64,000 bases of DNA from Candidatus Undinarchaeales archaeon (GTDB lineage: Archaea; SpSt-1190; JASMDC01), in contig JASMDC010000006.1 of NCBI GenBank assembly GCA_030753015.1, forward strand, positions 62,001 through 126,000, in the 5' to 3' direction. The stretch's first letter is position 1; each line of letters starts with the position of its first letter. The position numbers and the translations under genes are program-made. Below are positions 1-40,514 of this stretch, one piece after another. Under the pieces are notes generated by a model. The model did no database searches. It was given only the letters and a program-made list of their open reading frames with translations, and was not told where the DNA came from.

Positions 1-2118
1 CTCGCCCTGACGACCGCCATTGAGGTTACACCCGACGACTTTCTGCTGGAGGGTGCACGCGAGTGCGGACCCAAGACCACATGGAAGTGCCAGACCGGTG
101 AATCGATGGGCAGCTTGATCTTCGCCTACGCTCTTCGCTACAAGGAGACGGGTGAAGAGGCATACCTCACCGCCTTGCAGGAACTGCATGCGATGGGAAC
201 GTCGGACTGCGGACAGCACACCGGTTGGAACTGCGGTGCCGCCTGGCCTCAGACGTGGATGATGCTGGGATACGCGGCGGCCTACGAGGCCACAAACCTC
301 ACCGAGTTCAAGGAGGGTCTGGAGGGTCTGGCCGATTCCGGCTCCATCGACTGCGGTGGTAAGTTCGGTGGTCGATGTCGCGACGGCAAGATGCAGGGCT
401 TTACGATTCTTGCCTACACGACAGCCTACAAGGTCCTTGGCCGTGAGCAGGACCTCGCGATGGCCCGGGACCTCGGTGACAAGGGCTCGCTCGAGTGCGG
501 CCCCCGAGCTGGCTGGCAATGCAAGTACGGCTACTCACAGGGACCCTACATGCTGGGCTACGCACGTCTGTACGAGCTCACCGGTGAGGCGAGCTACCTG
601 GAGGCCCTGGAGGGGATGTTCCGCAAGGGCGCGTCCGAGTGCGGGCCGACCACGGGCTGGCGGTGCAACGATGCCGCCTCGGCAGCCTGGCTCACATATG
701 GTTACGTTCACGTGGTTGAACACCTGCACAACGAGACCCTCTTGACCATGGTGGACGAGCTGGTCCGCACCGGTTCGCGGGACTGTGGTCCCGACACTGG
801 ATGGAAGTGCGGGCTCGGCCAGAACCAGGCCATTTTCATCCAGGCATACATCAAGGCTGGCGAGCGCGAGCGCGAGTTCCTTGGATATGCTGACCAGATG
901 CGTGCGAAGGGCTCGTGGGACTGTGGTCCTGAGACAGGGACGCGGTGCGAGTTCGGTATAGATTGTGCTCTCATGAGCATCTCGTACGGGAACGCCACGA
1001 TCTTCGATGAGCTCTACACGTGCGAACCCGGTCGCGTGCTCTGTAATGAACAATGCGTAGAAGGTCTTCACATCCTCGGCGAGGGCGAATCCTGTGTGTG
1101 CAACGAGCAGTGTGACCACCTCGTATGCGTGGAGGGCACATGCTGTCCGGGCGACCGGTTCTGGTGCGCCGAGGCCGCAGCATGCGTGCTCCCCGCCCAG
1201 CCTGACGGCGCCTCTTGTTCCTGCGAGCGTCAGTGCGCAAGCGGTCTGTGCGTAGGCACCTGCGTCCAGCCGGCCACCGTTCAACGGGGCGAGGAGTGCA
1301 CTGTGGACGATGAGTGTGTTGATGGGCTCAAGTGCGTCGGTGGTACTTGCTACATCCCCGGTACATTGAAGACCAGCGATGAGTGCTTGGCGCATGCCGA
1401 GTGCCCTGGCATATGTGCCGATGGCCACTGCTGCGGTAAGGGGCAGACGTGGTGTGCTGATGAGGTTGCCTGTTATGACACCTGTCCGACGCCCACACCC
1501 CCACCTCCCACACCAACACCCGTCGAGCCCATCGAGGCCACGCCCGAGCCCACTCCTGAAGCGCCTACAAGCACACCGACCACGACGGACGCTGACGACA
1601 CGAAGCTCCCCACACAGACACCTGCCCCCTCTGCTGAACCCGAACCCCCGACCGACCAGGGGGATTCGTCGGTGGTGCTCCTTGGGATCCTTGCCCTTAT
1701 CCTTATCATCACCTACACCCAGCTCTCTGGTGGCCCCGAACGGCGCGCAGAGGAGGCGCCCGGCTCAGAGGTCGTGGTCGTCGCTCCCTCCGAGACGTTC
1801 GAACCCAAGGTCAAGATTAAGACCATGGGGGAATCGGCCGAAGAAGAATCGGAAGCGCTCCCGTCAGAGGAGAAAGAGGCACCCGAGATCGAACCTGAGA
1901 AGGTGTTTGAGAAGGAGACCAAGCCCCTACCGACACCTTCCGTCAAGGAGGAAGCGCCTGCCGCAAAGAAGAAGGCCCCCCAAAAGAAACCCACCAAGAA
2001 GAAGGCGGTAGCAAAGAAGGCGGCGCCCAAGAAGAAGGCCTCCACCAAGAAAACCGCTACGAAGAAAGCGGTCTCTAAGAAGAAGGCTTCGAAGAAGAGG
2101 ACCTCGAAGAAGAAGTAG
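1..2118 (+). CDS. Repeat-containing surface protein with H1-like lysine-rich tail, 5' truncated
   Basis: The reading frame is open from base 1, so the N-terminus (and any signal peptide) lies outside the window; 705 residues are visible. Residues 1 to about 330 hold seven repeats of about 48 residues, each opening with a G-S/A-x-D/E-C-G motif followed after about 5 residues by G-W-x-C and then a helix-rich stretch, suggesting a disulfide-stabilised alpha-helical repeat domain. A Cys-rich part follows (about 330-480, with repeated C-x3-C and C-C-x-G motifs), then a Pro/Thr-rich stalk, one hydrophobic helix (about 558-575), an acidic segment, and a final 50 residues that are mostly Lys, Ala and Thr. 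The layout implies an extracellular N-terminus and a cytoplasmic tail. The tail resembles the C-terminus of histone H1. The family is not recognised and the role unknown. Confidence 0.85.
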   Translation, partial: LALTTAIEVTPDDFLLEGARECGPKTTWKCQTGESMGSLIFAYALRYKETGEEAYLTALQELHAMGTSDCGQHTGWNCGAAWPQTWMMLGYAAAYEATNLTEFKEGLEGLADSGSIDCGGKFGGRCRDGKMQGFTILAYTTAYKVLGREQDLAMARDLGDKGSLECGPRAGWQCKYGYSQGPYMLGYARLYELTGEASYLEALEGMFRKGASECGPTTGWRCNDAASAAWLTYGYVHVVEHLHNETLLTMVDELVRTGSRDCGPDTGWKCGLGQNQAIFIQAYIKAGEREREFLGYADQMRAKGSWDCGPETGTRCEFGIDCALMSISYGNATIFDELYTCEPGRVLCNEQCVEGLHILGEGESCVCNEQCDHLVCVEGTCCPGDRFWCAEAAACVLPAQPDGASCSCERQCASGLCVGTCVQPATVQRGEECTVDDECVDGLKCVGGTCYIPGTLKTSDECLAHAECPGICADGHCCGKGQTWCADEVACYDTCPTPTPPPPTPTPVEPIEATPEPTPEAPTSTPTTTDADDTKLPTQTPAPSAEPEPPTDQGDSSVVLLGILALILIITYTQLSGGPERRAEEAPGSEVVVVAPSETFEPKVKIKTMGESAEEESEALPSEEKEAPEIEPEKVFEKETKPLPTPSVKEEAPAAKKKAPQKKPTKKKAVAKKAAPKKKASTKKTATKKAVSKKKASKKRTSKKK

Positions 2119-2543: not shown

Positions 2544-3473
2544 TCACGACTGGGAGAAGACCTCTCGTAGCACTTCGAGGTTGAGCCGACCGGCGCTGTA
2601 AACCTTTCCTGCAGCAAGGTCGTTGACCGTGACCTTGGCAGGGGCGAAGATGTCGTGATCCATCTTGTAGAAGTCCTTCCCCGCCTCCTTGAACAACTGC
2701 TCGAACCGCTTACCATAGCTCTTGGAGCCCGTGGAAACGACCTTGTCGGTGAGCTCCTGGCTGAAGCCGTCGATGAAGTACAGGTTGTCGCCCCCGTAGA
2801 TGAGGGAGTCGTTCGTGGCCCCCATGGCAGCAAGCCCCTTGTACACGGGTGCTAGCGGGGATACGCCGAAGGCCGAGACGACCTTCCGCACGTCGAACTT
2901 GAGCACGTCGAGCATCCGGAACGTGCCCATCTCGAGCGTCCGGCTCGCCAGCTGGACCGATGAGGTTATGCTGTCTGTCCGCGCCACGAGCATGTGGACA
3001 TCTCGTGGTTTGATACCACACTCCTCGGCGACCGTCCCCGCCACATCGTCACTCGGGAGCGAACTTGCTTCCAGGCAGAGCACAGCCACATCGTCGTCCT
3101 CGCGCTGACGGTCGATGACCTCGTACACGTCCTTGGGCTTGAGGGCCAGTGCCCTGGCCGGGCCCGAGCCCATACCGAAGAACTTACCCGCGACCACCTG
3201 CCATCCTGCCATCTGCGAGGCTATGGTGGCCGTCGTCGGGTGGTCGGTGCGAACCTCGACCACGGGGTACGTCAGGTCCTCCTCGTGTCTGGTTGACAGC
3301 TGAACCTCGGCGAGCCCCCCCATGGTGACCTTGGCGAACAGTAGCCCCGCCTGAACGCTCCCTTTCCATGTCACACCACAGTCGATTACCGTGGCGCCGC
3401 ATTCAAGTGTCTGGGTAGGGCACCTCTCCTTCAACTGCTCGACGAGCCCGAGGACGCTTTCGTTGAGTCCCAT
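2544..3473 (-). CDS. mch: Methenyl-H4MPT cyclohydrolase
   Basis: Catalyses the reversible hydrolysis of methenyl-H4MPT to formyl-H4MPT in the cytoplasm, the step between Ftr and Mtd. The 309 residues match the full length and character of archaeal Mch, including the N-terminal C-G-A-T-V-I-D-C-G-V segment, the G-x-G-S-G-P-A-R motif near residue 100, and the C-terminal segment around Y-G-G-D-N-L-Y. A GGAGGT site 9 bases before the ATG supports the start. It is the last C1-pathway gene of the long block, 21 bases after fmdC1. Confidence 0.95.
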   Translation of the reverse strand: MGLNESVLGLVEQLKERCPTQTLECGATVIDCGVTWKGSVQAGLLFAKVTMGGLAEVQLSTRHEEDLTYPVVEVRTDHPTTATIASQMAGWQVVAGKFFGMGSGPARALALKPKDVYEVIDRQREDDDVAVLCLEASSLPSDDVAGTVAEECGIKPRDVHMLVARTDSITSSVQLASRTLEMGTFRMLDVLKFDVRKVVSAFGVSPLAPVYKGLAAMGATNDSLIYGGDNLYFIDGFSQELTDKVVSTGSKSYGKRFEQLFKEAGKDFYKMDHDIFAPAKVTVNDLAAGKVYSAGRLNLEVLREVFSQS

Positions 3474-3494: not shown

Positions 3495-4304
3495 TCATCC
3501 AGTCCGAACGAACACCTCGCCCTTTCCTTTACCGGAGATATCTCCTTCGTACCTGGCGAAGAGAGCTCCGATTTGCTCCTCTGCGAGCGGTAATCCGTTG
3601 CCTTTCAGCTGCTGCAGGAGCTCCCCGACGTGAGAGGGGCGATCGGTCCCTTGGGGGATGAACGTGGGGAGTAGCTGCGGGGGGGTGAGGGCGATGATGG
3701 TGCCCCCATCCATAGCGGCACCGGCCCGCCCGCCAAGAGCACCGAGGCACACGATGGTGCCACCGGTCATGAGCGTCCCAGCGAAGGTCCCCAAGCTACC
3801 TGCGACGGCGATCGTACCGCCGCACATCAGCTCCCCGACCTCATCGCCTGCGTTTCCTTCGATGATGATACTGCCGCCCGCCATACCGGTCTTCGAGCCC
3901 CGGTAGCCGGCCCCGGCGAGGTTGCCAGTGTTGCCCTTGACATGAATGAGGCCGTCCTTCATCTCGGCGCCGAGCCAGTCCCCGACATCTCCGTGGACGA
4001 CGATTCTACCGCCGTCCATCTCTGTGCCGAGGTGCATCCCGGCGTTCCCGTGGATGGTGATGAGGCCGGTGGTCATCCGTGCTCCGATGTGCTTGACCGC
4101 GCTGACATCGCCCTCGATGACGATCTCGTCCTCCTCGCCTGATGGATCGATCTCGAACAGCTGGCTCAGCGGCTTCCGCTTGTTCCCCCACAGCACCTCG
4201 AGCTTTCCCAGCTCCTTCGCGGGCCGGGCGGCGAAGACATCGGGTGATATGCATTCTGCCTCGACTGGTATCGTGAACGCGACCTTTGGTCTGAGAACGA
4301 CCAT
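3495..4304 (-). CDS. fmdC: Formylmethanofuran dehydrogenase subunit C, copy 1
   Basis: The beta-helical structural subunit of the enzyme that reduces CO2 to formylmethanofuran. Residues about 60-215 are a ladder of repeats of the form M-x-G-G-x-I-x-V-x-G, the fold shared with the C-terminal domain of glutamate synthase. The 269-residue length is normal. Its ATG follows the stop of fmdA1 with no gap, indicating translational coupling. It is clearly a diverged paralogue of the copy at 11542-12318. Whether this set uses Mo or W cannot be told from the sequence. Confidence 0.93.
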   Translation of the reverse strand: MVVLRPKVAFTIPVEAECISPDVFAARPAKELGKLEVLWGNKRKPLSQLFEIDPSGEEDEIVIEGDVSAVKHIGARMTTGLITIHGNAGMHLGTEMDGGRIVVHGDVGDWLGAEMKDGLIHVKGNTGNLAGAGYRGSKTGMAGGSIIIEGNAGDEVGELMCGGTIAVAGSLGTFAGTLMTGGTIVCLGALGGRAGAAMDGGTIIALTPPQLLPTFIPQGTDRPSHVGELLQQLKGNGLPLAEEQIGALFARYEGDISGKGKGEVFVRTG

Positions 4305-5924
4305 CTAGATCCCTCCGCACCGTACGGCTTCCCCACGCGGCAGGTACTCGGCCTGCACGGGGTAGTTTTCCAATGTCATCGTGTAGTACTTCGCGAACAC
4401 CTGACGGTCCTCGTCGGTGAGCTCTCCACCGGCGTCTATCCAGTAGGTCTTGCCCTCGGGTGTGGCGACCACCTCCCCGTTCTTCACGACGATCCTTCCG
4501 TCCTTGATCGTGTAGACCGTGCGTTTGAACGATCCCTCTATGTCGTCCTCCGAGAAACGGTAGATGGCCAGGTCGGCGTCGGCCCCGATACCGAGATGCC
4601 CCTTTCCCTTGAGCCCGAGCGTCTTGGCAGTGGCCGCTCGCGTGATCACAGCGATCTCATAGAGCGAGTACTCCCTATCGAGGCTCGCCAGTATCGCCCG
4701 AGCAGCCGCGGCCTTGTGGATCGTGCCAAGGGTGGTCTCTCGCTCCTTCTTGCTCATCAACCAAGAGATGATCTTCGGGTAGTGGTAGAATGGACCACCG
4801 TTGGGGTGGTCGGTTGTGAGGCTGACCTTCCACGGATCCGTGATCATGAGCGCGACCTCGAGCCCGATGGCCCATTGCACAGCGTTGACCGGGTTCCTCT
4901 CCAGGTACCGGTACGGGACGATGCCGGCCCCGGTCTCCATCTCTACGTCCGCGTTGATCCACTTGTTCCCTGTCAGCCGGTACAGGTGGTGCTGTGCGGG
5001 ACCGTCGGCGGTCATGGTGGTGGTCTCGTCGAACAGGACCTGTCCCATGTCACACGTCACGTGGTCACACCGGTTGATCAACTTCGCGATCTCGGCCATT
5101 CCGGAACCGAAGTCCTTCCATCCCTCGCCGGTGTATGCCTGGAACTGCAGGTGTGTGAGGTGGATCCTGTCCTTGACCGCGTTGATCGTCTCGATGGTGG
5201 TCTCGTAGTTACCGGGCATCCCCAGATTGTTGGCGTGCACGTGGATGGGGTGAGGAAGCCCCATCTCATCGTTCGCCCTGGCGAGGCCCGCAAGCACCTC
5301 CCGCGGTGTGACGTCGTAGTTGTCCACGGGATCGTCGAGGCTTTCCACGTCACGGCCCCACTTCCAGTTCTCCACGCCACCGGGATTCACAAGTTTCACC
5401 GCGTACCCCTTCGATGCACCCAGGAACCAGGCAATGGTGTTCTTGAGGTTCTCCCGATCCCCCTCCTTGATATAATGCATGACGAAGTGGTTATTTCCCA
5501 AGAGGGTGTAGGCGGCCTTGTCCAGGATGGGCGTGTCGTTCAGCTCCTCGTGCGTATGCCGGGCTGATAGCGGAGTGATCGCGGGCTCCATCACCGTCGT
5601 GTACCCCATGGTCGCGTAACGGTACCCCGTCACGTAGGTCGTCGGGATCGAGTACCCGGTCCCCGCGCGCGTGACCGCGGTCTTCGGTACCGGGTCCTTG
5701 CGATGGTCCTCCGGTCTGAACAACCGGCCAAGGTTCACCTTCCCTCCAGAGATGTGGGTGTGGATGTCAAGGCCGCCTGGAAAGACGATGAGACCCGTGG
5801 CATCGATGACTTTTCCCTTCGCCTCCTCGACGATCTTTCCGTCCTTGATGAAGATGTCCATCTTCTCCCCGTCGATCCCGTTCGCGGGATCGTACACGGT
5901 GCCGTTCTCTATGACCAGGCTCAT
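4305..5924 (-). CDS. fmdA: Formylmethanofuran dehydrogenase subunit A, copy 1 (amidohydrolase)
   Basis: The 539-residue metal-dependent amidohydrolase subunit, which condenses formate (made from CO2 in subunit B) with methanofuran. The zinc-binding H-T-H motif is at residues 55-57, and the family's R-P-E-D-H segment and the conserved T-D-H-P-N-G-G-P-F motif (about residue 370) are present. It starts four bases inside the end of the fmdD-fmdB fusion (ATGA overlap) and abuts fmdC1, so set 1 is one tightly coupled unit. The copy at 12315-13991 has the same motifs. Confidence 0.95.
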   Translation of the reverse strand: MSLVIENGTVYDPANGIDGEKMDIFIKDGKIVEEAKGKVIDATGLIVFPGGLDIHTHISGGKVNLGRLFRPEDHRKDPVPKTAVTRAGTGYSIPTTYVTGYRYATMGYTTVMEPAITPLSARHTHEELNDTPILDKAAYTLLGNNHFVMHYIKEGDRENLKNTIAWFLGASKGYAVKLVNPGGVENWKWGRDVESLDDPVDNYDVTPREVLAGLARANDEMGLPHPIHVHANNLGMPGNYETTIETINAVKDRIHLTHLQFQAYTGEGWKDFGSGMAEIAKLINRCDHVTCDMGQVLFDETTTMTADGPAQHHLYRLTGNKWINADVEMETGAGIVPYRYLERNPVNAVQWAIGLEVALMITDPWKVSLTTDHPNGGPFYHYPKIISWLMSKKERETTLGTIHKAAAARAILASLDREYSLYEIAVITRAATAKTLGLKGKGHLGIGADADLAIYRFSEDDIEGSFKRTVYTIKDGRIVVKNGEVVATPEGKTYWIDAGGELTDEDRQVFAKYYTMTLENYPVQAEYLPRGEAVRCGGI

Positions 5925-7651
5925 GATCTCACCCTCTCGATAATTTTCTCAAGAACTACCTTATCGGGCAGCTGGTCGGACTCGACCACCTTTCTAAGCC
6001 TGATAGGGATGCCGTCCATCCTGTAGGCTGTACCCTCGCACTCGATGCCGGCGATCGCTGAGGGGATCAGGACATCGGCGATGGACGAGGTGAGGTTGTG
6101 CTTCGGATCGATGATGATGGTGGGGATGTTCGCCAGATGCTCGACCGCTTCCCGTGGGAAGTGGGCGGCTGGGTCCGAGGAGATGATCAAAGCGGCATCG
6201 CACTCCTTTCGTGTCAGCATGTCGACGGCCGAGAACTCTCCCGGATTGTACACAGGGTAGCCTCGTGAGAGGTTGACAGCGAAAGGATAGCCTGTGATCC
6301 ACGTCATGACCGTGTTGATCCCCGTCACATTGTAATGGCCTCGCATAGGGAGGATGGTGAACTTCGTATGGTCGTTCAGGTCCCTGACCAGGCGTAGCGC
6401 CGCGTTGACGTTCATGTGGCGGCCCGCGGACATGGTGAGCCCCAGGCCGAAGAAGATGATCCCGAACTTGCAGCTCTTCATCCGCTCGGCCAGCTCCTTG
6501 ATGGTGCTGGCCGGGACACCGCCAACGTCACCCACGTCGTGCCCCTTGAGCGTGGCACGCAATGCGGATAGCAGCTCGTAGTCCTGGCCCTGCCTGACCT
6601 TGATGAACTGGTCCGCCAGCCGGTATGTATACTTCCATCGGGAGTCCACCTGGGAGGTCTTGGTCTCACGCACGTCCACGTGGACGATGGTGCGGTCCTT
6701 CCTTCCTTCAGTGGTGAACATGCCCTCGGGCGTTCCGGAATATCGTGTGATATGCCTGATGTGGGCCTCGGCGGGATTACATCCCCAGTAGACCACGAGG
6801 TCCGCCCGGTTCCGCACCTCACCGAGAGTGCACTTCGACACCCCGACGTCCTGAGCGGCCATCACGGTCGGTCCGTGGCACACGGAGGACGTGTTGTCGA
6901 TGGTCGCCCCGAGCAGTTCTGCGAGCTCGATGGCGCGCCGCTGGGCGTCGGACTCGGTGGAACTGAGGCCGTAGATCAGAGGGAAGTCCGCGCTTTTCAG
7001 GATCTCGGCGGCCTTGTCCAAGGCCTCATCGAGGGGAACGTCCACGAGCTTCCCCTTCTTCCTCACAGCGGGCTTCGCCCGGTCACGGTCCCAGTTGACG
7101 AATCTGCTCCTCGCGATGTCGCACCCCACCTCCATGTCCCTGACCATTCCTTTGCACATCACGAGCTCCACGTCGTCGCACAGGCAGCCGCAGAAGGGGC
7201 AGACAACGTCGGTCATGATCGACCGCTCGTCCTCGGGGGGGAGTGGAGGGGGAGGCGTCTGGTCGGGCGCTTGGGCGATCTTCTCCTTAAAAGGGAGAAG
7301 GTCGTTGAGCGTGGTCGGTCCGTCCTCGGTCTTCGAAAGCTCGATCCACACACCCTTGAACCGCGGCATACCGGTACCCCCGGTGTCCCCGCCGATGAGG
7401 GCGTTGGCCCAAGGGCCTACTGGTATGAACACGTTGCCCCGGTCGAGCTGGCCTTTACTTGCCCGGACCACCACCGAACCTGATCCCGTGGTAATCTTGA
7501 CCGGAGCGTTCTCCGTGATACCCAGGTCATCCATGTCATCCCCGTTCATGAACGCCACGGCAACCTCCTCGTAGTACTCCGACGAGGTCTTTCCGACCTC
7601 GAGGGCAATACCCTGACCGACCGTCCTGCCCGTGTTCAACATGCATCTCAT
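5921..7651 (-). CDS. fmdDB: Formylmethanofuran dehydrogenase subunits D and B fused, copy 1
   Basis: A 576-residue fusion. Residues 1 to about 125 match FmdD, the molybdopterin-dinucleotide-binding C-terminal piece (with V-G-P-W-A-N-A-L-I). A linker of about 18 residues, rich in Pro, follows. Residues 146-576 match FmdB, the CO2-reducing molybdopterin subunit: C-P-F-C-G-C-L-C binds a [4Fe-4S] cluster, and Cys258 in S-V-C-H-G-P is the expected Mo/W ligand (Cys, not selenocysteine). In copy 2 the same parts are separate genes in the same order. Met146 could be a second start, with GAGG upstream. A run of 7 G at 7235-7241 near the junction makes an assembly frameshift worth excluding. It overlaps the HdrA stop by one base. 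Confidence 0.9.
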   Translation of the reverse strand: MRCMLNTGRTVGQGIALEVGKTSSEYYEEVAVAFMNGDDMDDLGITENAPVKITTGSGSVVVRASKGQLDRGNVFIPVGPWANALIGGDTGGTGMPRFKGVWIELSKTEDGPTTLNDLLPFKEKIAQAPDQTPPPPLPPEDERSIMTDVVCPFCGCLCDDVELVMCKGMVRDMEVGCDIARSRFVNWDRDRAKPAVRKKGKLVDVPLDEALDKAAEILKSADFPLIYGLSSTESDAQRRAIELAELLGATIDNTSSVCHGPTVMAAQDVGVSKCTLGEVRNRADLVVYWGCNPAEAHIRHITRYSGTPEGMFTTEGRKDRTIVHVDVRETKTSQVDSRWKYTYRLADQFIKVRQGQDYELLSALRATLKGHDVGDVGGVPASTIKELAERMKSCKFGIIFFGLGLTMSAGRHMNVNAALRLVRDLNDHTKFTILPMRGHYNVTGINTVMTWITGYPFAVNLSRGYPVYNPGEFSAVDMLTRKECDAALIISSDPAAHFPREAVEHLANIPTIIIDPKHNLTSSIADVLIPSAIAGIECEGTAYRMDGIPIRLRKVVESDQLPDKVVLEKIIERVRS

Positions 7652-10092
7652 CAGTCACCACCTCCTAGGGCTTTCTCGAAGGCTTTCTTCGTCTTGTCCA
7701 GTTCTTCCTTCGTCACGTTCTCGACGATGGTATGCATCTGTTCGATCGTGTCAGCGAACATCTGGCCCTCGGCGGCGGAGAACCATCCCAGGTGCAACCG
7801 GTTCTTGTCAAGACCCAGCTTATCCATCCTCTTCCAGAAGCGCTCCACACGCTTCTTGGCATAATGATTGGCGTCGATGTAGTGACAGTCGCCGATGTGG
7901 CAGCCCGAGACGAGCACCGTGGCGACCCCCCGTGCGAAGGCCCGCTCGATGAACTTCTTGGCCATCCTCCCCGAGCACATCATCCTGATTATGCGCACGC
8001 TGGTGGGGTACTGCATCCGGCTCACTCCCGCGAAGTCCGCTCCCGCATAGGAGCACCAGTTGCAGCAGAACGCCAGGATCTTCTTGTCGGCGTCCTCCGC
8101 GGTGGCCGCGTCGATCTGGGAGAAGATCTGCTCGTCGGTGAAGTGGCGCATGACCAAGGCGGCTGAGGGACATTCCGCTCCGCAGGTGCCGCACCCGTGG
8201 CACGCGGCCTCGATGATCGTAATCTTCTTAGTCTTCTTGTCGAAGGCGATGGCGTTGTAGGGGCAGACCTTGGCGCACAGGCCGCAACCTATGCACTTCT
8301 CGTCGATCAGCTTCGGCGTGATTGCCTCCACCTTCACCTTTCCCTTGGCCATGAGGATGCTCGCGCGGGCAGCCGCGGCGCTGGCCTGGGTCACACTGTC
8401 CTTGATGGCCTTGGGTGATTCTGCGGTCCCGGCGAAGAAGATACCGCCGGTGGGCGCGTCCACCGGCCGGAGCTGTGGGTGCGCTTCCATGAAGAATCCG
8501 TCCGCGGTCCGGGACAGGTTGAAGAGGCGCTGGATCTTGTCGGCGTCCTCCCCGGGCTTCAGACCGATGGACAGGATCACCATCCCTGTGTCGATCTGGT
8601 ACAACTCCTTTTGAAGGGTGTTCTCTCCGACTAGACGCAGGTCCCCTCCCTTGCGCTCGAAGATCTCGGCGGGTAGCCCGCGGATGAATATAACGCCCGC
8701 GGCCTTCGCCCGCCTGAAGAGGTCCTCGTATCCCTTGCCGAAGCACCGCATGTCCACGAAGAACACGTAGATCTTGGTGTCAGGCCAGTGCTCCTTGATG
8801 AGCAGGGCGTCCTTGATGGAGTTCATGCAGCATACGCTGCTGCAGTAGGGCAGGCCGCATTTCTCGGATCGCGAGCCCACGCACTGGACGAACGCCACCG
8901 ACTCCGGTATCGCCCGGTCGCTGGGCCGTATCAGATGACCTCCGGAAGGCCCGCCGGCGTTGATCAGGCGCTCGAACTCAAGCGATGTAAGGACGTTCGG
9001 GAACCGACCGTAGCCGTACATCTTCAGGGGAGAGGGATCGTACACATCCGCGCCGGTTGCGATGATGACGGTGCCCACATCGAGTTCGACCTTCTCGGGC
9101 TCCTGCCGGAGGTCGATCACCCCCGCACCCGAGGCCTTGCACACCCTCACGCATTCGTGGCACCGTATGCAGCTGTCCATGTCCACGATAAAGGTCGATG
9201 GCACTGCCTGGGCGAAGGGCGTGTAGATGGCCTTCCGCGGGGCGAAGCCTGTGTCGAACTTGTTGGGGACCTGGACCGGGCAAACCTTGGCGCAGTCCCC
9301 GCAGGCCTTGCACTCCTCCACGACGTACCGGGGCCTCTTCAGGACCGTCGCCGTGAAGTTCCCGATGTACCCTTTAACGTCAACGACCTCGCTGTTGGCC
9401 ATGAGCTCGATGTTCGGGTGTCGGCCCACGTCGGACATCACCGGCGCGAGGATGCAGATGGAGCAGTCCAGTGTGGGGAAGGTCTTGTCGATCTGGGCCA
9501 TCCTGCCCCCGATGCTGGGCTCCTTCTCCACGAGGTAGACCTTGTATCCTGTGTCAGCTAGGTCGAGAGCGGCCTGTAGCCCGGCGACCCCGCCACCGAC
9601 GATCAGGGTCTTCCTTATCACGGGGACCTCGAGCTCCACCTGGGGCCTGAGCAGGGATACCTTGGCCACCGCCATCCTGACCAGATCCTTGGCTTTCTGG
9701 GTGCCTTTCTCCTTCTCATATAGGTGGACCCAGCTGCAGTGGTCCCGAATGTTGGCCATCTCAAACAGGTATTTGTTCAACCCGGCCGCCTCACAGGCCT
9801 TTCGGAAGGTGGGCTCGTGGAGACGGGGGGTGCAGGATGCGACAACGACCCTGTTCAATTTTTCCTCCTTGATGTCGGTCCTGATTTCATCCTGCCCCGG
9901 GTCCGAGCAGCAGTACCTGTTGGTCTTCGCAACGACGACGTTCGGGAGCGTGGACGCGAACTTGGCGACGCCCTCAACGTCAACGGACCCGGCGATGTTC
10001 AGACCGCAGTGGCACACGAACACGCCCACTCGGATCTCGTTGTCATCACTGGAGGGTTCAGATGTCTTCTTGCTCGCTTTTCCTTTTGCCAC
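7651..10092 (-). CDS. hdrA: HdrA-MvhD fusion, flavin-based electron-bifurcating subunit
   Basis: An 813-residue soluble iron-sulfur flavoprotein. Residues 1-150 are the HdrA N-terminal domain (V-C-H-C-G at 26-30). A thioredoxin-reductase-like FAD domain starts at G-G-G-V-A-G (166-171), with the HdrA-specific T-L-D-C-S-I-C-I-L-A-P segment at about 207. Ferredoxin-type clusters sit at 261-271 and 308-318, and two more at about 600-650. The last 130 residues are MvhD/FlpD-like: C-C-N-W-C-S-Y-A-G, M-C-S-G-R and G-C-H-I-G-D-C-H-Y. HdrA carries the bifurcating FAD and MvhD the entry [2Fe-2S] site. Start is GTG. It sits between the HdrC-GltD fusion (5-base gap) and fmdDB, so it probably supplies electrons to formylmethanofuran dehydrogenase. 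Confidence 0.93.
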   Translation of the reverse strand: MAKGKASKKTSEPSSDDNEIRVGVFVCHCGLNIAGSVDVEGVAKFASTLPNVVVAKTNRYCCSDPGQDEIRTDIKEEKLNRVVVASCTPRLHEPTFRKACEAAGLNKYLFEMANIRDHCSWVHLYEKEKGTQKAKDLVRMAVAKVSLLRPQVELEVPVIRKTLIVGGGVAGLQAALDLADTGYKVYLVEKEPSIGGRMAQIDKTFPTLDCSICILAPVMSDVGRHPNIELMANSEVVDVKGYIGNFTATVLKRPRYVVEECKACGDCAKVCPVQVPNKFDTGFAPRKAIYTPFAQAVPSTFIVDMDSCIRCHECVRVCKASGAGVIDLRQEPEKVELDVGTVIIATGADVYDPSPLKMYGYGRFPNVLTSLEFERLINAGGPSGGHLIRPSDRAIPESVAFVQCVGSRSEKCGLPYCSSVCCMNSIKDALLIKEHWPDTKIYVFFVDMRCFGKGYEDLFRRAKAAGVIFIRGLPAEIFERKGGDLRLVGENTLQKELYQIDTGMVILSIGLKPGEDADKIQRLFNLSRTADGFFMEAHPQLRPVDAPTGGIFFAGTAESPKAIKDSVTQASAAAARASILMAKGKVKVEAITPKLIDEKCIGCGLCAKVCPYNAIAFDKKTKKITIIEAACHGCGTCGAECPSAALVMRHFTDEQIFSQIDAATAEDADKKILAFCCNWCSYAGADFAGVSRMQYPTSVRIIRMMCSGRMAKKFIERAFARGVATVLVSGCHIGDCHYIDANHYAKKRVERFWKRMDKLGLDKNRLHLGWFSAAEGQMFADTIEQMHTIVENVTKEELDKTKKAFEKALGGGD

Positions 10093-10097
10093 GGTCC

Positions 10098-11513
10098 TCA
10101 GCTCCCCTCCGTTCTGTCTGCGAGATACTTGTCGATCGACGTGGCAGCCCGCTTTCCGGCAATGATCGCCTCCATCGCCGAGGCGGGGCCCGACACCGCG
10201 TCCCCCCCGGCGAACACGATGGACCGGCTCGTCTCCATGCTGAACGGATCTGCGATGATTGTGCCCCTTCCAGCGAGCTTGAACGCTCTCAGGATCCCGG
10301 GATCCAATGTCATTCCGATAGCGACTATGATGGAATCAGCCTCCACGACGGACTCCGTACCGGACTCGACCTTCGGGCAGAAGAAACCCAAGGGGTCGAG
10401 CACCGAAAGGCACTTCAGGCTCTCCACACCCGTACATCGTCCGTTCGCCCCGATGATCCGCGTAGGCATCCTGGCGGGATGGAGGACAACACCCTCTTTA
10501 ACGGCCTCCTCGATCTCAGGCCCGAACGCAGGCATCTCCTGCCGTGATTCACCACAGACGATGTGTGCCTCCTTGGCACCGAGCCGCAATACGGTCCGGG
10601 CCGCGTCCATGGCCACATTACCGCCCCCGATGATCACAACCTTGTCCCCGAGATCGAACCGAGTGCCCGTCTTCGTTCCACTCAGGAAGCCGAGTACATC
10701 GAATACACCTTCCAGGTCCTCGCCAGCGATACCGATCCTCCTGCTCATGTGGAGACCGGTTGCGACGAACACCGCTTGGTAGCCCTCCTCTAGGAGGTCG
10801 TCGAGTTCGGGGGCCTTGGTACCGGTCCTGATGTCCACGCCCCGGTTCTCGATCCGCTGGATGTCGGCGTCGAGCGCCTTTGAGGGCAGCCTGAACTCGG
10901 GTATACACCTTCTCGGCATGCCTCCAGCCTCGGGTAGGCATTCGAACACCGTGACGGGATACCCTTTCCCGGCCAGTTCCCAAGCGGCCGTGAGCCCCGC
11001 AGGACCAGAACCGACGATGGCGATCCTCTCGTCATGGGTGATGGGGGGTGGTTCCTCCCCTTTGATCATGCGTTCATATTCGGTGATGAAGCTCTCGAGC
11101 GCTTCGGCGACCTGCGGTTTTTCCACGTGGCCGTGAAGGGGATTGAAGCAGATATAAGTGCATACCGCGGGCAGGGGCATTTCGTTCTTGATGATTTCCT
11201 GGGCCTCCTTGAACGCCTCAAGGTGTCCCCTCTCGGCCGCAGCGTCCTTCATCTGCAGGAGGAGCTCTGGCACCGCGAGTCCTTGGGGGCATCGCCGGTG
11301 ACACCGGTAGCACCAGGCGCACAGCCAGATGGCCGTACCATTCATGACCTTCTCAGGATCGAACGGGAGCCCTTGGAGAAGGCTCCGGGGATTGTAGTGA
11401 TGAGGGAGCAGCTCCATCATTGGGCAGCTCGCGGTGCAGACACCGCACTGGAAACAGAATTTCAGTTGATCAGTCTCCAGTAGCTCCTTTAGGATCTCGT
11501 CGTTCGTTCCCAT
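10098..11513 (-). CDS. HdrC-GltD fusion: Fe-S plus NAD(P)H-type flavin oxidoreductase
   Basis: A 471-residue fusion. Residues 20-90 are HdrC-like with two cluster motifs, C-F-Q-C-G-V-C-T-A-S-C-P and C-A-W-C-Y-R-C-H-R-R-C-P. From about residue 165 it is a GltD/NfnB-type flavoprotein: G-S-G-P-A-G-L FAD site, P-E-A-G-G-M-P, the second G-G-G-N-V-A-M-D nucleotide site, and C-terminal F-A-G-G-D. Such modules exchange electrons between NAD(P)H and Fe-S chains. The ATG at 11513 has GAGGAG 5 bases upstream; 22 earlier in-frame codons are rejected. Joined to HdrA-MvhD and lacking HdrB, it suggests an NAD(P)H-linked Hdr variant. Substrate specificity (NADH or NADPH) is not visible. Confidence 0.88.
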   Translation of the reverse strand: MGTNDEILKELLETDQLKFCFQCGVCTASCPMMELLPHHYNPRSLLQGLPFDPEKVMNGTAIWLCAWCYRCHRRCPQGLAVPELLLQMKDAAAERGHLEAFKEAQEIIKNEMPLPAVCTYICFNPLHGHVEKPQVAEALESFITEYERMIKGEEPPPITHDERIAIVGSGPAGLTAAWELAGKGYPVTVFECLPEAGGMPRRCIPEFRLPSKALDADIQRIENRGVDIRTGTKAPELDDLLEEGYQAVFVATGLHMSRRIGIAGEDLEGVFDVLGFLSGTKTGTRFDLGDKVVIIGGGNVAMDAARTVLRLGAKEAHIVCGESRQEMPAFGPEIEEAVKEGVVLHPARMPTRIIGANGRCTGVESLKCLSVLDPLGFFCPKVESGTESVVEADSIIVAIGMTLDPGILRAFKLAGRGTIIADPFSMETSRSIVFAGGDAVSGPASAMEAIIAGKRAATSIDKYLADRTEGS

Positions 11514-11541
11514 CGTTACTCCTCGATACAGCTGTAGGGGA

Positions 11542-12318
11542 TCAATCCATGAGGAGGATGGTCCCCTTTCCGTTCTCAACGAGGTCCCCGGTGAACGTCT
11601 TAAAATCCCCGCTGAATCCCTCGCCCTCGATTTTGGGGTCCTTGATAGAGCCCCCTTCCTTGAATCCGAGCATGAGCTCTCCTTTCGAGACTACGATGGT
11701 CCCACCGGTCATCTGGGCACCGACGCGTGGGCCTGCTGTGCCCTCGATGACGATGAGCCCCTTCTTCATGTGGATGCCCGTGAACAGGTCAGTATCACCC
11801 TTGATGACGATCGTGCCACCGGCGAGCCTGCTGCCAACCTCGACACCTGCGTTCCCGTGTACTGTGATCCTGCCACCCTTCATGCCCGCTGACTCACCCC
11901 TGTAGGCCGCGCCCAGGTAGTCGGATGCGTTGCCCTTGATGACGAGCTCGCCACCGGACATGTCCATGCCACAGAACGCGTCGCAGTTTCCTTCCACCAC
12001 GATCCTGCCGCCCGACATCCGGTAGCCGCAGTACATACCGCCGTCCCCGTTCACCTGGACCTCGCCCTCAGCGAGGGCCTCGCCGATGCGCTTGAACTTG
12101 CTCAGATCGTCACCCTCGAGCACGATCAGTCGGCCTTTACCCTTCTCGTCCTCGATGGTCACATCGAAGAAGTCACTCAGTGTGCGTTCCTGGTTCCCCT
12201 CGTGGACGGCTACCTTCTTGATCTCAGCAAGGGTCATCCCGAAGAGCTGGTGGTTGACACCATCGGCCTCGACATTGATGTCGTCTACATTGTTCTTGGA
12301 CCGCAGGAGTATCTTCAT
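11542..12318 (-). CDS. fmdC: Formylmethanofuran dehydrogenase subunit C, copy 2
   Basis: A 258-residue beta-helix subunit with the M-x-G-G-x-I/L-x-V-x-G ladder between about residues 75 and 220. Its ATG lies inside the 3' end of fmdA2 (4-base overlap). The N- and C-terminal parts outside the ladder differ markedly from copy 1 (3495-4304), so the two sets diverged long ago rather than arising by recent duplication. The HdrC-GltD fusion starts 28 bases later. Confidence 0.93.
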   Translation of the reverse strand: MKILLRSKNNVDDINVEADGVNHQLFGMTLAEIKKVAVHEGNQERTLSDFFDVTIEDEKGKGRLIVLEGDDLSKFKRIGEALAEGEVQVNGDGGMYCGYRMSGGRIVVEGNCDAFCGMDMSGGELVIKGNASDYLGAAYRGESAGMKGGRITVHGNAGVEVGSRLAGGTIVIKGDTDLFTGIHMKKGLIVIEGTAGPRVGAQMTGGTIVVSKGELMLGFKEGGSIKDPKIEGEGFSGDFKTFTGDLVENGKGTILLMD

Positions 12319-13991
12319 TTCTTACACCTCTCCATGACCATCTCGCTCTCCCCGAGATAGTCCATCTGCACGGGGTAGTTATCGAGCGAAACGGAGTAGT
12401 ACCCTTCGAACCGCTTTCTCAGGTCCTTCTCGATGACGTCCGTCCGGGGTTTCGTGTCGATCCAGAGCGTCCTTCCCGTAACGGCATTGACGACCTTCCC
12501 GTCCTTGACCGCGAGTTGGCCGCCCTTGATGGTGTATGCACAGTGCCTGAAGGCACGTTCGATCGTTGCGCCGTCCTTCTCCTCGACACCGATGTCGTAC
12601 ACCGCAACGTCCGCATCGGCACCGATCCCCAGGTGCCCCTTGTTAGCGAGACCAAGGGTCTGTGCGGTGCCTCGTGTGATAAGACAGATATCGAAGAGGT
12701 CCAGTTCACGGTCCATGTCGGAGATGGCGGCCTTGCTCTTCACGGCATCGTGGAGCGTGGCTATGGTCTCGGCCCTGGCCTTCTTGGACATGAGCCATGC
12801 GATCATCTCCGCATAGCATGTGAAGGGGCCACCGTTCGGATGGTCCGTGCTCAGGTGTATCTTCGCAAGGTCCTTTAACGCAAGGACCATCTCGAGACCG
12901 ACGGCCCACTGGATCGCGTTCACGCTGACATCCTTCCGATACTCGTAGGGAACGACCCCAGTACCAGCCTCGAGCTCAACGTCGAAGTTTATCCATTTCT
13001 GCTTGCCGAGCTGGTGGAGATGGAACTCGAAGGGCCCGTCGGCCGTCATGGTCGTTGTGGGCTCGAAGCAGACGTTCCCCGTGTCGACCGTGATGTTCGG
13101 GGTCTTGTCGATCTTCTCGGCGAGCTCGACCCCCCTGGACTCGAACGTCCTCCAGGAGTCGCCACCGTACCCGTTGAACTGTAGGTGTGTGATGTGCAGG
13201 ACGGACCGTTCCTTGTTGGTGAGGCCTTTGACGGAGTCGATGGTCTCGAGCGCGGTCGTGTAGTTACCGGGGGTGCCGAGGTTGTTGCAGTGGAGGTGAA
13301 CCGCATGGGGGAGCCCGAGGCTCTCGTTGATGTCCACAAGACCCCGGATGATCTCCCGCGGCGTCACCTCGAAGTGCGTGCAGGGATCGTCAAGGCCGTC
13401 AACGTTCTTGCCCCACGCCCAGCTGGCCGTACCGCCAGGGTTCACGCATTTGATACCATAGCACTTGGTGGCCAAGAGCATCCATGCGACCCACTCCTTG
13501 CATCGATCGATGTCGCCGGCCTTGAGGTACTCGATGACCTGATGATTGTTGCCCAAGAGGAGGAGCCCGGTCTTGTCGAGCATCGGGATATCATGGAACT
13601 CTTCGTGGGTGTGCCTGGCCTTCAGAGGAGGGACCGCAGGCTCGATGACCGTTGTGTAGCCCATCTCGGAGTAGGTGTACCCGGTCAGAAACGTTGTGGG
13701 TACGGAGAAACCGGAGCCGGCCCGTGTGACGTTCGTTCTCGGGACGGTGCGCATCCGGCTGTCCTCTGGTCTGAAGAGCCGGCCGCTGTTCACCTTCGAG
13801 CCGGCGATATGCGCATGGATGTCGACGCCGCCCGGGAACACTACCTTCCCGGCCAGGTCAATGGTCTCGGCCTTTTTGCCGAGATCTTTCTCGGCGACCA
13901 TCTTCCCGTCCTTGATGAAGAGGTCCATCTTCTCGCCACGGATCCCGTTCTTGGGATCGAAGACGATACCGTTCTTGAGTATCAGTCCCAT
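12315..13991 (-). CDS. fmdA: Formylmethanofuran dehydrogenase subunit A, copy 2
   Basis: A 558-residue amidohydrolase subunit with the metal-binding H-A-H at residues 59-61, R-P-E-D-S near residue 75 and S-T-D-H-P-N-G-G-P-F near residue 375. The start is placed at the ATG of M-G-L-I-L-K-N-G, matching the M-S-L-V-I-E-N-G start of copy 1, and lies one base after the fmdB2 stop. Twenty-five earlier in-frame codons overlap fmdB2 and are very Arg/Ser-rich, so they are rejected. Confidence 0.94.
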   Translation of the reverse strand: MGLILKNGIVFDPKNGIRGEKMDLFIKDGKMVAEKDLGKKAETIDLAGKVVFPGGVDIHAHIAGSKVNSGRLFRPEDSRMRTVPRTNVTRAGSGFSVPTTFLTGYTYSEMGYTTVIEPAVPPLKARHTHEEFHDIPMLDKTGLLLLGNNHQVIEYLKAGDIDRCKEWVAWMLLATKCYGIKCVNPGGTASWAWGKNVDGLDDPCTHFEVTPREIIRGLVDINESLGLPHAVHLHCNNLGTPGNYTTALETIDSVKGLTNKERSVLHITHLQFNGYGGDSWRTFESRGVELAEKIDKTPNITVDTGNVCFEPTTTMTADGPFEFHLHQLGKQKWINFDVELEAGTGVVPYEYRKDVSVNAIQWAVGLEMVLALKDLAKIHLSTDHPNGGPFTCYAEMIAWLMSKKARAETIATLHDAVKSKAAISDMDRELDLFDICLITRGTAQTLGLANKGHLGIGADADVAVYDIGVEEKDGATIERAFRHCAYTIKGGQLAVKDGKVVNAVTGRTLWIDTKPRTDVIEKDLRKRFEGYYSVSLDNYPVQMDYLGESEMVMERCKK

Positions 13992-13992
13992 T

Positions 13993-15360
13993 CTACTTGC
14001 CCCCTCTTTTCTCCTTGACACGTTCAAGGATCTTCGCGACGATGTCCGTGTCCGACGGCACGTCACTATTGATGACCTTCTTCAGTCGTATGGGGACCCC
14101 GTCCATTCGGTAGGCCGTCCCCTCGGCCTCAACTCCGGTGACCGCGCATGGGAGGTAGACGTCGGCGAACTTGGACGTGATGGTCTCGTGAGGATCGATG
14201 ACGATGACCGGCATATTGCTGAACCGTCGTGCAGCCTCCTTCGGGAGGTGCGCGACCGGATCGGACGCGACGATGAACAGGCAGTCCGCATCGTCCCGCA
14301 TCAGCAGGTCCACCAGCGAGGTCTCTCCGGGATTGTATCTTGCATACCCCCTCGTGAGGTCCACGGCGAACGGGTAACCCGTCTGCCACGTGAACACCTC
14401 GGCGGCGCCCGTGACATTGTAATGGCCACGCATGGGGCGGATGACGACCTTCGTGTCCTTGTTGAGCTCGGCCCCAAGAGAGAGGATAGCGTCGATGTTC
14501 CGATGCCTGCCGCGTGTCATGGTCAGCCCGAGGCCGAAGAAGAACGCGCAGAACTTCGAGCGCTTGAGCCTCTGGGCGAGCTTCATGACCTTCTTCTTGA
14601 TGACGCCCGTGCCAGGTATCTCGTCCGGTAGCTCCTCCCCCTTCATAGCGAGCCTGAGCGCGTGGATCAGCTCGTAATCCGCGTTCGGATCAACCTTGAT
14701 GAACTGGGTGGCGACACTCGTGGACGCGGTCTCCCTGACGTCGACGACGACGACCTCCCGGTCCTGGCGTCCCTTCTCCCTGAAGGCGCCCCTGGGGTAG
14801 ACCGTGTACCTGCTCATGTGGCGCATGTGCGCCTCGGAGGGGTTGCACCCCCAGTAGATGATGAGGTCCGCATGGTTGAGGACCGTTCCCAGTGTGCAGG
14901 AGGAAATGCCCACGTCCTGGACGGCCAGGGTGGAGGGGCCATGGCAGACGGAAGAGGTCTGATCGATGACACCGCCGATCTCCTCCGCAAGGGCAATCCC
15001 TTCACGGGTAGCCTCCACCGAAGTGGATGCCCATCCGAAGAGCACCGGTTTCTTGGCAGCGAGGAGCAGATCGGCCGCCTTGTCGATGCACGCATCCAGC
15101 TTGGCCTCATTGAACGCGTCGTCAGGAGCCTTCTTGTCACCGCTCTTCTTCCTGAGCAGGTTCTTCCTCGTCGCCCCCTTGGTGATGGACTTCTTGAACT
15201 TGAAGTATCCGACCCCGCACGCGTGATAGATCTCGGCCTCGTCGTCCCCCGTCCTCTTGATATGGATGTCGTCGCAGAGGTTGCCGCAAAACGGGCACGT
15301 GACGTCCGTGACATCGGTGAGATCGGGCTTGATGTTCGTGAGTTTCTCTTCCTCGGCCAT
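13993..15360 (-). CDS. fmdB: Formylmethanofuran dehydrogenase subunit B, copy 2
   Basis: The catalytic molybdopterin subunit, 455 residues. C-P-F-C-G-N-L-C (22-29) binds the [4Fe-4S] cluster, and Cys139 in S-S-V-C-H-G-P is the expected Mo/W ligand. Y-W-G-C-N-P-S-E-A-H and P-M-R-G-H-Y-N-V-T-G are shared with the FmdB half of the fusion at 5921-7651, but a Lys-rich insertion near residues 55-80 is not. The start is the ATG at 15358-15360, one base after the fmdD2 stop. Confidence 0.94.
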   Translation of the reverse strand: MAEEEKLTNIKPDLTDVTDVTCPFCGNLCDDIHIKRTGDDEAEIYHACGVGYFKFKKSITKGATRKNLLRKKSGDKKAPDDAFNEAKLDACIDKAADLLLAAKKPVLFGWASTSVEATREGIALAEEIGGVIDQTSSVCHGPSTLAVQDVGISSCTLGTVLNHADLIIYWGCNPSEAHMRHMSRYTVYPRGAFREKGRQDREVVVVDVRETASTSVATQFIKVDPNADYELIHALRLAMKGEELPDEIPGTGVIKKKVMKLAQRLKRSKFCAFFFGLGLTMTRGRHRNIDAILSLGAELNKDTKVVIRPMRGHYNVTGAAEVFTWQTGYPFAVDLTRGYARYNPGETSLVDLLMRDDADCLFIVASDPVAHLPKEAARRFSNMPVIVIDPHETITSKFADVYLPCAVTGVEAEGTAYRMDGVPIRLKKVINSDVPSDTDIVAKILERVKEKRGGK

Positions 15361-15361
15361 C

Positions 15362-15772
15362 TCAAGCACCCCCGTACAGGTCGCCAAGTAGTTTGTCCAG
15401 GCTCGTGATCCCTTGTCCCATGGACGTGGACACCTCGGCCGGGATCCCCTTGTACGACGGCATCCCCGTGTGACTTGTGTCCGTCGGGATGAGCGCGTTC
15501 GCCCACGGGCCGAGCGGCACGGCGATGACGCCCGGTGAGTTCATGGTCGGTCGTACCCTGAGCTCCACGGAGCCCACCTTGGTAGTGACCTTCACGATAG
15601 CGTCCTCCTTCACGCGGAGCCGGTTCATGTCATCCTCGTCCATGAGGACAGTCGAGCATTCATCTCGGTACTCCTGGGTGAGCTTCCCCATTTCCAGAGC
15701 CTCGCCCTGTCTGGCGGTTCGTACCGTGACCAGGGTGCATTTGATCGGTGGTGCTAGGATGAGAAATCCCAT
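15362..15772 (-). CDS. fmdD: Formylmethanofuran dehydrogenase subunit D, copy 2
   Basis: A 136-residue stand-alone version of the molybdopterin-dinucleotide-binding domain. The V-P-L-G-P-W-A-N-A-L-I motif is shared with the N-terminal part of the fmdDB fusion. It precedes fmdB2 by one base and follows the Fe-S protein by 10 bases. In this family B and D together hold the pterin cofactor, which is why gene adjacency or fusion is common. Confidence 0.92.
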   Translation of the reverse strand: MGFLILAPPIKCTLVTVRTARQGEALEMGKLTQEYRDECSTVLMDEDDMNRLRVKEDAIVKVTTKVGSVELRVRPTMNSPGVIAVPLGPWANALIPTDTSHTGMPSYKGIPAEVSTSMGQGITSLDKLLGDLYGGA

Positions 15773-15782
15773 ATCGATAACC

Positions 15783-16241
15783 TCAGATGAATTCGAACGC
15801 CTTCTTGGGGCATGCGTCTCCGCATACTCGGCACGTCTTTGTAGCCACCTCGCCTGAGACGCGGCGGCATTTCTCGAGCCTCACGATCTTGATGCGACCG
15901 TTGATGACCTTCAGAATGACCTCGTCGCTGTCGGGTCCCTTACCTCCGGCCGCCTTGGGATCGACCACGTTCACGGGACATGCCACGAGACAGTTGGCGC
16001 AGCCGTCGCAGAGCTCCTCGTGCACGATCAGGCCCGAGGCCTCGGCGCCCTTGATCGTCTCTAGAATCTCCAGGAGTTTCTCCCTGTTCTCCTGGAACTC
16101 CTCGGCCGTTACGGGAAGGCATTCCTCCAGCTTCGCCTCGTTCTTTAGGAGCGCCATTGCGAACGCCATGCACGATTTCTGCGGGCACTTCTCGCAGTTC
16201 GTTTTAGGCAGGAGATTGTAGAAATCCATTGCACGTACCAT
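15783..16241 (-). CDS. Iron-sulfur protein: CdhE-N-like cluster plus ferredoxin domain
   Basis: A 152-residue electron-transfer protein. Residues 10-40 have the L-P-K-T-N-C-x2-C-x4-C-M-A-F-A pattern seen at the N-terminus of corrinoid iron-sulfur proteins (compare CdhE at 17959-19362), completed by Cys40. Residues 75-150 are a two-cluster ferredoxin: C-D-G-C-A-N-C-L-V-A-C-P, and a second set with a long insertion ending C-R-V-C-G-D-A-C-P. Lying directly before fmdD2, it is a candidate electron carrier for that dehydrogenase in place of the FwdF/FwdG proteins of methanogens. GGTGAT upstream supports the first ATG; Met5 is an alternative. Confidence 0.8.
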   Translation of the reverse strand: MVRAMDFYNLLPKTNCEKCPQKSCMAFAMALLKNEAKLEECLPVTAEEFQENREKLLEILETIKGAEASGLIVHEELCDGCANCLVACPVNVVDPKAAGGKGPDSDEVILKVINGRIKIVRLEKCRRVSGEVATKTCRVCGDACPKKAFEFI

Positions 16242-19362: not shown

Positions 19363-19366
19363 CCTT

Positions 19367-20587: not shown

Positions 20588-20603
20588 GGTGATCACTACC
20601 TTA

Positions 20604-21356: not shown

Positions 21357-21371
21357 GAACAGTCACCCGTC

Positions 21372-22799: not shown

Positions 22800-22802
22800 T
22801 CA

Positions 22803-25585: not shown

Positions 25586-25620
25586 GCTGAGCGCACCTCC
25601 GTCCAGTGCCGGAAAAACAC

Positions 25621-25641
25621 TCTCCCGGACACGTCGGGAGA
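25621..25641. promoter_or_regulatory. Perfect inverted repeat at the cdhA transcription start
   Basis: TCTCCCG and CGGGAGA form a perfect 7-bp inverted repeat around a 7-base spacer. It lies 13 bases downstream of the TATA box on the minus strand, where transcription should begin. It could be a repressor operator or a hairpin in the 5' leader. Confidence 0.55.
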
Positions 25642-25653
25642 AAGCCGAAACGT

Positions 25654-40513: not shown

Positions 40514-40514
40514 C

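Follow-up and report, generated by a model that had tools for sequence, protein, structure and literature searches.

How non-methanogenic archaea with an acetyl-CoA pathway match their pools of ferredoxin, F420 and pyridine nucleotides without [NiFe] hydrogenases is an open question, and the same carrier problem has been raised for ANME-1, which lacks Fno and has MetF in place of Mer (PMC9012536). The question arises at a locus within a 64,000-nucleotide (nt) stretch of an archaeal draft metagenome-assembled genome (contig JASMDC010000006.1, positions 62,001-126,000; the whole stretch is called the window, and coordinates refer to it unless another locus is named). Here an HdrC domain joined to a GltD/NfnL flavoprotein (HdrC-GltD; 10098-11513, minus strand, 471 residues) is encoded directly before an HdrA2-type HdrA joined to MvhD (HdrA-MvhD; 7651-10092, minus strand, 813 residues, family NF040770). 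We propose, giving the idea slightly less than even weight, that the two gene products would form one soluble, reversible, flavin-based bifurcating or confurcating oxidoreductase that connects ferredoxin with NAD(P)(H) and, probably, with F420.

Two Hdr fusion proteins without HdrB

The N-terminal part of HdrC-GltD matched HdrC of known structure (PDB 5odc_C, E-value 4.6e-16) and the HdrC family TIGR03290 (1.8e-17), and the remainder matched GltD/NfnL families with values from 1e-90 to 1e-35. The HdrC domain spans approximately residues 1-105 in a 473-residue reading of the open reading frame (ORF) and contains eight cysteines arranged as CX2CX2CX3C twice, giving the two [4Fe-4S] motifs of an HdrABC-type HdrC. 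Translation probably starts at the ATG at 11513, behind GAGGAG, which yields 471 residues. Because this is about the length of an ordinary NfnL or GltD protein, and the Fer4_20 cysteines are mostly lost, the protein is better seen as a GltD in which HdrC has taken the place of the N-terminal iron-sulfur domain (Fer4_20) than as a fusion of two complete proteins. Its GltD part has an NAD(P)-type Rossmann domain and retains both the FAD motif GSGPAG and the nucleotide motif GGGNVAMD. In an AlphaFold2 model it had predicted local distance difference test (pLDDT) scores mostly above 90, and a Foldseek search with the GltD model returned NfnABC/NfnL structures first (9bov_A, 9n5u_A, 4ylf_B).

HdrA-MvhD scored 1210.7 bits against the HdrA2 family NF040770 (cut-off 1100) and aligned end to end with solved chains (PDB 5odc_A, 3.4e-240; 5odc_D, 1.2e-40). 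Its [2Fe-2S] MvhD domain covers approximately residues 670-795 (Pfam FlpD/MvhD match at residues 672-792, 3e-45). The FAD site and iron-sulfur clusters of an HdrA subunit were found, with every cysteine present in both ferredoxin domains, the inserted (261-271, 308-318) and the C-terminal (600-610, 631-641); GltD does not interrupt the ferredoxin domain as it does in Type III HdrA. The inserted ferredoxin domain of HdrA is where ferredoxin reacts. In an ungapped alignment, E374 and K427 corresponded to E356 and K409 of M. thermolithotrophicus HdrA, the residues that separate bifurcating HdrA from other HdrA (PMC9430772).

The two genes lie in a single tight operon of about 23 kb on the minus strand (25690 to 2544), in the order CODH/ACS, Mtd, Ftr, an iron-sulfur protein, FmdD-B-A-C, HdrC-GltD, HdrA-MvhD, FmdDB-A-C and Mch, whose host could fix or release CO2 via the acetyl-CoA pathway. 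Gaps between ORFs range from -74 to +25 nt across the operon and are 22, 5, -1, -4 and 0 nt in the hdr/fmd stretch, where the hdrA-mvhD stop and the fmdDB start overlap by 1 nt. A preliminary description of this DNA had placed the pair between two formylmethanofuran dehydrogenase (Fmd) gene sets, with no HdrB, Mvh hydrogenase, formate dehydrogenase or polyferredoxin gene adjoining, and both observations held at the locus. In addition, no NfnS gene was found in the operon, and no HdrB-type CCG domain was found there or at the orthologous locus described below.

A proposed exchange of ferredoxin, NAD(P)(H) and F420

Hdr complexes take in electron pairs of intermediate potential and split them, one electron going to ferredoxin and its partner via HdrC to HdrB. 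In the pair studied here HdrC, the usual electron exit, would lead to the GltD flavin instead of HdrB. We suggest a route in which electrons would pass in either direction between the HdrA flavin, the two HdrC clusters, the GltD FAD and NAD(P)(H), and ferredoxin would exchange electrons at the ferredoxin domains of HdrA. For the third partner, on the HdrA/MvhD side, F420 is the most likely candidate, because of the HdrA2 score and because HdrA2 of Methanosarcina acetivorans reacts with F420 without any FrhB (PMC5296606). NAD(P)H + reduced ferredoxin <-> 2 F420H2 would then be the net reaction, which could run either way close to equilibrium. Such an enzyme would balance the carriers of the acetyl-CoA pathway, namely ferredoxin for Fmd and CODH/ACS, F420 for Mtd, and NAD(P)H, and no Fno or [NiFe] hydrogenase that could balance these three pools was found in the genome.

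The direction of electron flow can be considered from the potentials of about -500 mV for ferredoxin, -380 mV for F420 and -320 mV for NADH (PMC5296606, PMC11656701). Bifurcation of F420H2 to NAD(P)+ and ferredoxin would be near equilibrium, somewhat uphill at standard values, and confurcation of reduced ferredoxin and NAD(P)H onto F420 would be downhill. The preliminary description had made NAD(P)H the driving donor. Unless an acceptor of higher potential takes part, however, NAD(P)H by itself cannot raise its electrons to the level of ferredoxin or Fmd; the usual acceptor, HdrB, is missing and none is encoded beside the pair, which favors the reversible exchange of ferredoxin, NAD(P)H and F420. 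The GltD site is more plausibly the acceptor side, or feeds confurcation.

If this proposal is true, HdrA would be a core for bifurcation in general, to which different electron exits can be attached, and the two-protein enzyme able to make the carrier exchange is small enough to express and assay. With confidence well short of even, we extend it to a new soluble Hdr class, in which GltD takes the place of HdrB and ferredoxin, F420 and NAD(H) are exchanged by bifurcation or confurcation. This class might provide the main carrier exchange in acetyl-CoA-pathway archaea without hydrogenase, Mer and Fno, with a GltD cassette that might be swapped between NAD and NADP.

Several observations weigh against this interpretation. 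The family score is what points to F420. At the two GltD sites where most relatives have YRR (46 of 58, including the ortholog) and GRRRP, the protein has CGE and GFFCP; with departures at both sites nucleotide specificity is uncertain and binding may be lost. The AlphaFold2 model is poor in the HdrC part, much of which had pLDDT scores under 50. Two FrhB homologs are encoded on two other contigs, and the source genome has an estimated contamination of 5.0%. An Nfn-type enzyme encoded elsewhere in the window (40028-47012, plus strand) may already link NADH, NADPH and ferredoxin. Finally, the ortholog keeps YRR, and the GltD domains of the two proteins did not group clearly (approximately unbiased test, p = 0.043); the cassette may therefore have been exchanged or have diverged fast.

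The preliminary description had left NADP(H) open as the coenzyme, which the missing YRR motif disfavors. YRR follows the second Rossmann beta strand and has a role in binding the 2'-phosphate in dihydropyrimidine dehydrogenase and GltD structures. The lost arginines would point to NAD(H) rather than NADP(H), and the window GltD falls in a ten-row clade whose members lack the RR pair.

Relation to known Hdr and Nfn systems

One close comparison is HdrA2B2C2 of M. acetivorans (type Ia; PMC5296606, PMC12054007), which bifurcates F420H2 (PMC5296606). The window pair shares with it the HdrA-MvhD fusion, above the HdrA2 cut-off, HdrC as electron relay and intact ferredoxin domains, but has no HdrB2, the disulfide-reducing subunit, carries GltD on HdrC, and belongs to a host without an Mcr match. 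HdrA-MvhD accompanied by HdrB is already known (PMC5296606), as is GltD joined to HdrA (PMC12054007, PMC9012536, PMC9430772). Type III HdrA, or HdrA-NfnB, of ANME-1 and Bathyarchaeota (PMC12054007, PMC9012536) combines Hdr with a GltD/NfnB flavoprotein, and a Moorella HdrA with a GltD domain, which oxidises NADH with benzyl viologen, likewise combines Hdr with a pyridine-nucleotide flavoprotein (PMC9430772). In ANME-1 the NfnB within HdrA has been proposed as an NADPH link where Mer and Fno are missing (PMC9012536). In all these proteins GltD interrupts the HdrA ferredoxin domain, whereas in the window it sits on HdrC, in the place of HdrB. We found GltD inserted in HdrA at loci L012, L021, L024, L102, L104 and others; where complete (L012, L102, L104), these loci keep HdrB, unlike the window pair.

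The NfnSL, NfnABC and StnABC transhydrogenases share the GltD/NfnL fold. They differ in having NfnS, which the operon lacks, and in the NfnL iron-sulfur domain, which HdrC replaces in the window pair, where HdrA presumably supplies the bifurcating flavin. Among the candidate homologs, those that turned out to be ordinary were NfnL (families f4 and f29), a dihydropyrimidine-dehydrogenase-like GltD (contig C73) and Thermococcus-type NfnABC-like proteins (f8). HdrC is also joined to GltD in a triple fusion, HdrC-GltD-HdrB (family f55; L097 7951-10716, L109 8122-10878, L121 7158-9953), which differs in its additional C-terminal HdrB-like CCG domain and in keeping the Fer4_20 cysteines. This AT-rich archaeal family is probably Asgard, and one triple fusion adjoins an aldehyde:ferredoxin oxidoreductase-like gene. 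Hdr and Fmd are linked in methanogen supercomplexes as well (PMC11656701), through polyferredoxin F together with HdrABC and a hydrogenase or formate dehydrogenase, none of which adjoin in the window. No stand-alone HdrC-GltD that replaces HdrB and partners HdrA-MvhD turned up in the open papers that were searched, which leave most subscription journals and preprints uncovered.

Recurrence of the pair in other archaea

We searched 394 archaeal genomes and 228 genomes of another archaeal phylum, that of genome G061, two partly overlapping samples. At the threshold used, the source genome was the only one of the 394 with a stand-alone HdrC-GltD. The 228 genomes yielded one clear ortholog, in genome G394 (locus L145; 45% identical over residues 5-467, HdrC cysteines conserved), and a second copy, in G551, that is cut off by a contig end. 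In G394, on a short contig, HdrC-GltD is again followed by HdrA-MvhD (HdrA 71% and MvhD 63% identical to those of the window) with four genes for a 2-oxoacid:ferredoxin oxidoreductase next in line and no hdrB gene at the locus. The HdrA proteins of the window and G394 formed one clade with support of 100 (Shimodaira-Hasegawa-like approximate likelihood ratio test, quick tree). The preliminary description had proposed looking for the pair beside fmd in other genomes: the pair does recur, but in G394 it does not adjoin fmd. Judged from its two settings, the pair is a portable module rather than a complex dedicated to Fmd.

Some relatives within the phylum of G061 have an hdrA reading frame that continues past a TGA at the codon of a cluster cysteine. 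In two cases (L121 3350-5077, L098 3916-5670) this TGA replaces the second cysteine codon of the DCxIC motif, as expected of a selenoprotein HdrA. Selenoproteins are a known feature of Asgard archaea (PMC11227280), and on the strength of the TGA the phylum is probably Asgard. GltD proteins of another family (f147; L147, L148, L150; 539-553 residues) lie within an operon resembling that of indolepyruvate/2-oxoacid:ferredoxin oxidoreductase.

Genomic context and alternative explanations

The source genome (3.85 Mb, 117 contigs, 98.9% complete) was searched family by family. No match was obtained genome-wide for the [NiFe] hydrogenase large subunit (PF00374), McrA, Mer or Fno, each of which did give matches in control genomes. 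CofD, for F420 synthesis, is present, as is MetF on contig C11, with a MetV-like gene directly upstream (both at L111 9365-10938) and no hdr gene seen nearby; MetV-like and MetF proteins in an archaeon without a Mer match resemble the Mer/MetF switch described for ANME-1. The hdrB gene occurs only in two separate operons, each with its own hdrC and hdrA: HdrC-HdrB-HdrA on contig C50, with an HdrA ending in an MvhD-like region, and HdrC-HdrB-HdrA-MvhD-FrhB-like on C62, near a molybdopterin oxidoreductase. The operon has no polyferredoxin F (FwdF/FmdF), and a motif scan of 332 kb of the genome, the rest not being searched, found none either.

Trivial explanations could be set aside. Chance or an assembly artefact is ruled out by the overlapping operon genes and by the recurrence of the gene pair in a genome assembled independently of this one. 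An ordinary GltD with its own iron-sulfur domain is excluded by a cysteine pattern that is of HdrC type and matches HdrC structures, and a Type III HdrA split by a frameshift by a complete HdrA with its ferredoxin domain unbroken. Contamination of the contig is unlikely given its archaeal A-type ATPase operon and the tetranucleotide correlations of the window halves, which were 0.89-0.95 with six of seven sampled contigs and 0.85 (left half) and 0.89 with the metVF contig.

The preliminary description had read the pair as an assembly serving Fmd: GltD would oxidise NAD(P)H, and HdrA would pass low-potential electrons straight to Fmd. Part of this reading is supported, by the HdrB-less pair with its nucleotide module, the bifurcation residues E374/K427, the linkage to fmd in one operon and the lack of any [NiFe] hydrogenase match in the genome. 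The position between two complete fmd sets, down to the 1-nt overlap, agrees with it, and both Hdr-Fmd supercomplexes and F420-linked Fmd are known (PMC11656701). Against dedication to Fmd, nevertheless, stands the 2-oxoacid:ferredoxin oxidoreductase beside the pair in G394. Direct delivery lacks support in that polyferredoxin F, the subunit through which known Hdr-Fmd complexes dock (PMC11656701), is missing from the operon and from the part of the genome scanned, and NAD(P)H as sole driver would face an uphill step. A shared ferredoxin economy would account for the fmd neighborhood no less well than direct Hdr-Fmd contact, and we regard the dedicated complex as distinctly unlikely. We also think it improbable that the pair merely recycles ferredoxin as a ferredoxin:NAD(P)H oxidoreductase without bifurcation, since it retains both bifurcation-marker residues and an MvhD domain, for which such a reductase would have no need, even though non-bifurcating HdrA homologs exist (PMC9430772) and both known contexts are ferredoxin-linked (Fmd/CODH in the window, 2-oxoacid oxidoreductase in G394).

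The MvhD arm might pair not with F420 but with another enzyme, such as MetVF or a molybdopterin oxidoreductase, coupling the enzyme to methylene-tetrahydromethanopterin (H4MPT) reduction or to formate. In known complexes it is on MvhD that hydrogenase or formate dehydrogenase docks, the genome encodes MetVF where Mer was not found, and HdrABC-MvhD-MetVF complexes of Moorella and Sporomusa are documented (PMC9430772); yet metVF lies on another contig away from any hdr gene seen, and no formate dehydrogenase or hydrogenase subunit adjoins the pair, so that we think this unlikely. The preliminary description had also held that an hdrB gene elsewhere in the genome, if co-expressed with the pair, would speak against its model. 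Two hdrB genes do lie elsewhere, and one of their products could join the pair to give an Hdr that reduces heterodisulfide or another disulfide, with an NAD(P)H side arm. We consider this very unlikely: each hdrB sits with its own partners, the G394 locus also lacks one, HdrC already bears GltD, and without Mcr there is no CoM-S-S-CoB from methanogenesis. Reversible exchange among ferredoxin, NAD(P)(H) and F420 is the reading that we prefer.

Gene content of the operon and neighboring loci

All operon genes are on the minus strand. Fmd set 1, downstream of HdrA-MvhD, comprises an FmdD-FmdB fusion (5921-7651; TIGR03129, 567 bits), FmdA (4305-5924; TIGR03121, 797 bits) and FmdC (3495-4304; TIGR03122, 260 bits), followed by methenyl-H4MPT cyclohydrolase, Mch (2544-3473; TIGR03120, 347 bits), the last pathway gene of the operon. 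Set 2 comprises FmdC, directly upstream of HdrC-GltD (11542-12318; TIGR03122, 236 bits), FmdA (12315-14066; TIGR03121, 762 bits; true start probably inside the ORF), FmdB (13993-15387; TIGR03129, 544 bits) and FmdD (15362-15772; NF042908 below cut-off, Pfam Molydop_binding 4.6e-14). In both sets the FmdB SVCHG and 4Fe-4S motifs and the FmdA metal-site motifs are intact. The sets, one of them with a fusion, occupy a single operon (3495-7651 and 11542-15772) and are only 53, 49 and 36% identical in FmdA, FmdB and FmdC, and are thus not a recent duplication.

Further upstream are a 152-residue iron-sulfur protein (15783-16241; PF04060 and dicluster ferredoxin), possibly a FwdG-like or CODH/ACS-related electron carrier, formylmethanofuran:H4MPT formyltransferase, Ftr (16267-17130; TIGR03119, 327 bits), and F420-dependent methylene-H4MPT dehydrogenase, Mtd (17132-17992; NF002162, 349 bits, cut-off 297). 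The CODH/ACS block (17959-25690) comprises gamma (17959-19362, 551 bits), probable delta (19367-20596), a CooC-like ATPase (20604-21356), beta, cdhC (21372-22799, 621 bits), a small subunit (22803-23282) and alpha, cdhA (23282-25690, 1098 bits).

At 40028-47012 on the plus strand, NuoE-NuoF-NuoG/FdhA-like genes precede NfnS and NfnL, a set likely to encode an NADH/NADPH/ferredoxin bifurcating complex or an NAD-linked formate dehydrogenase. Two molybdopterin oxidoreductase clusters elsewhere in the genome (L055 17348-19999, L096 232-1954, L058 3366-7681) include ferredoxin and NrfD-like membrane subunits of Psr/dimethyl sulfoxide (DMSO) type, which suggests that the host respires anaerobically; one of the two is located upstream of the C62 Hdr operon. 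At 3.85 Mb and with a near-complete acetyl-CoA pathway, the genome stands apart from the other sampled genomes of the phylum to which it is assigned, which measure 0.6-1.1 Mb. Near the start of the window (106-2118, plus strand) is an apparent surface repeat protein, which combines repeated GS-x-(D/E)-CG...GW(N/K)C units with a cysteine-rich region, a stretch rich in threonine and proline, and a tail rich in lysine.

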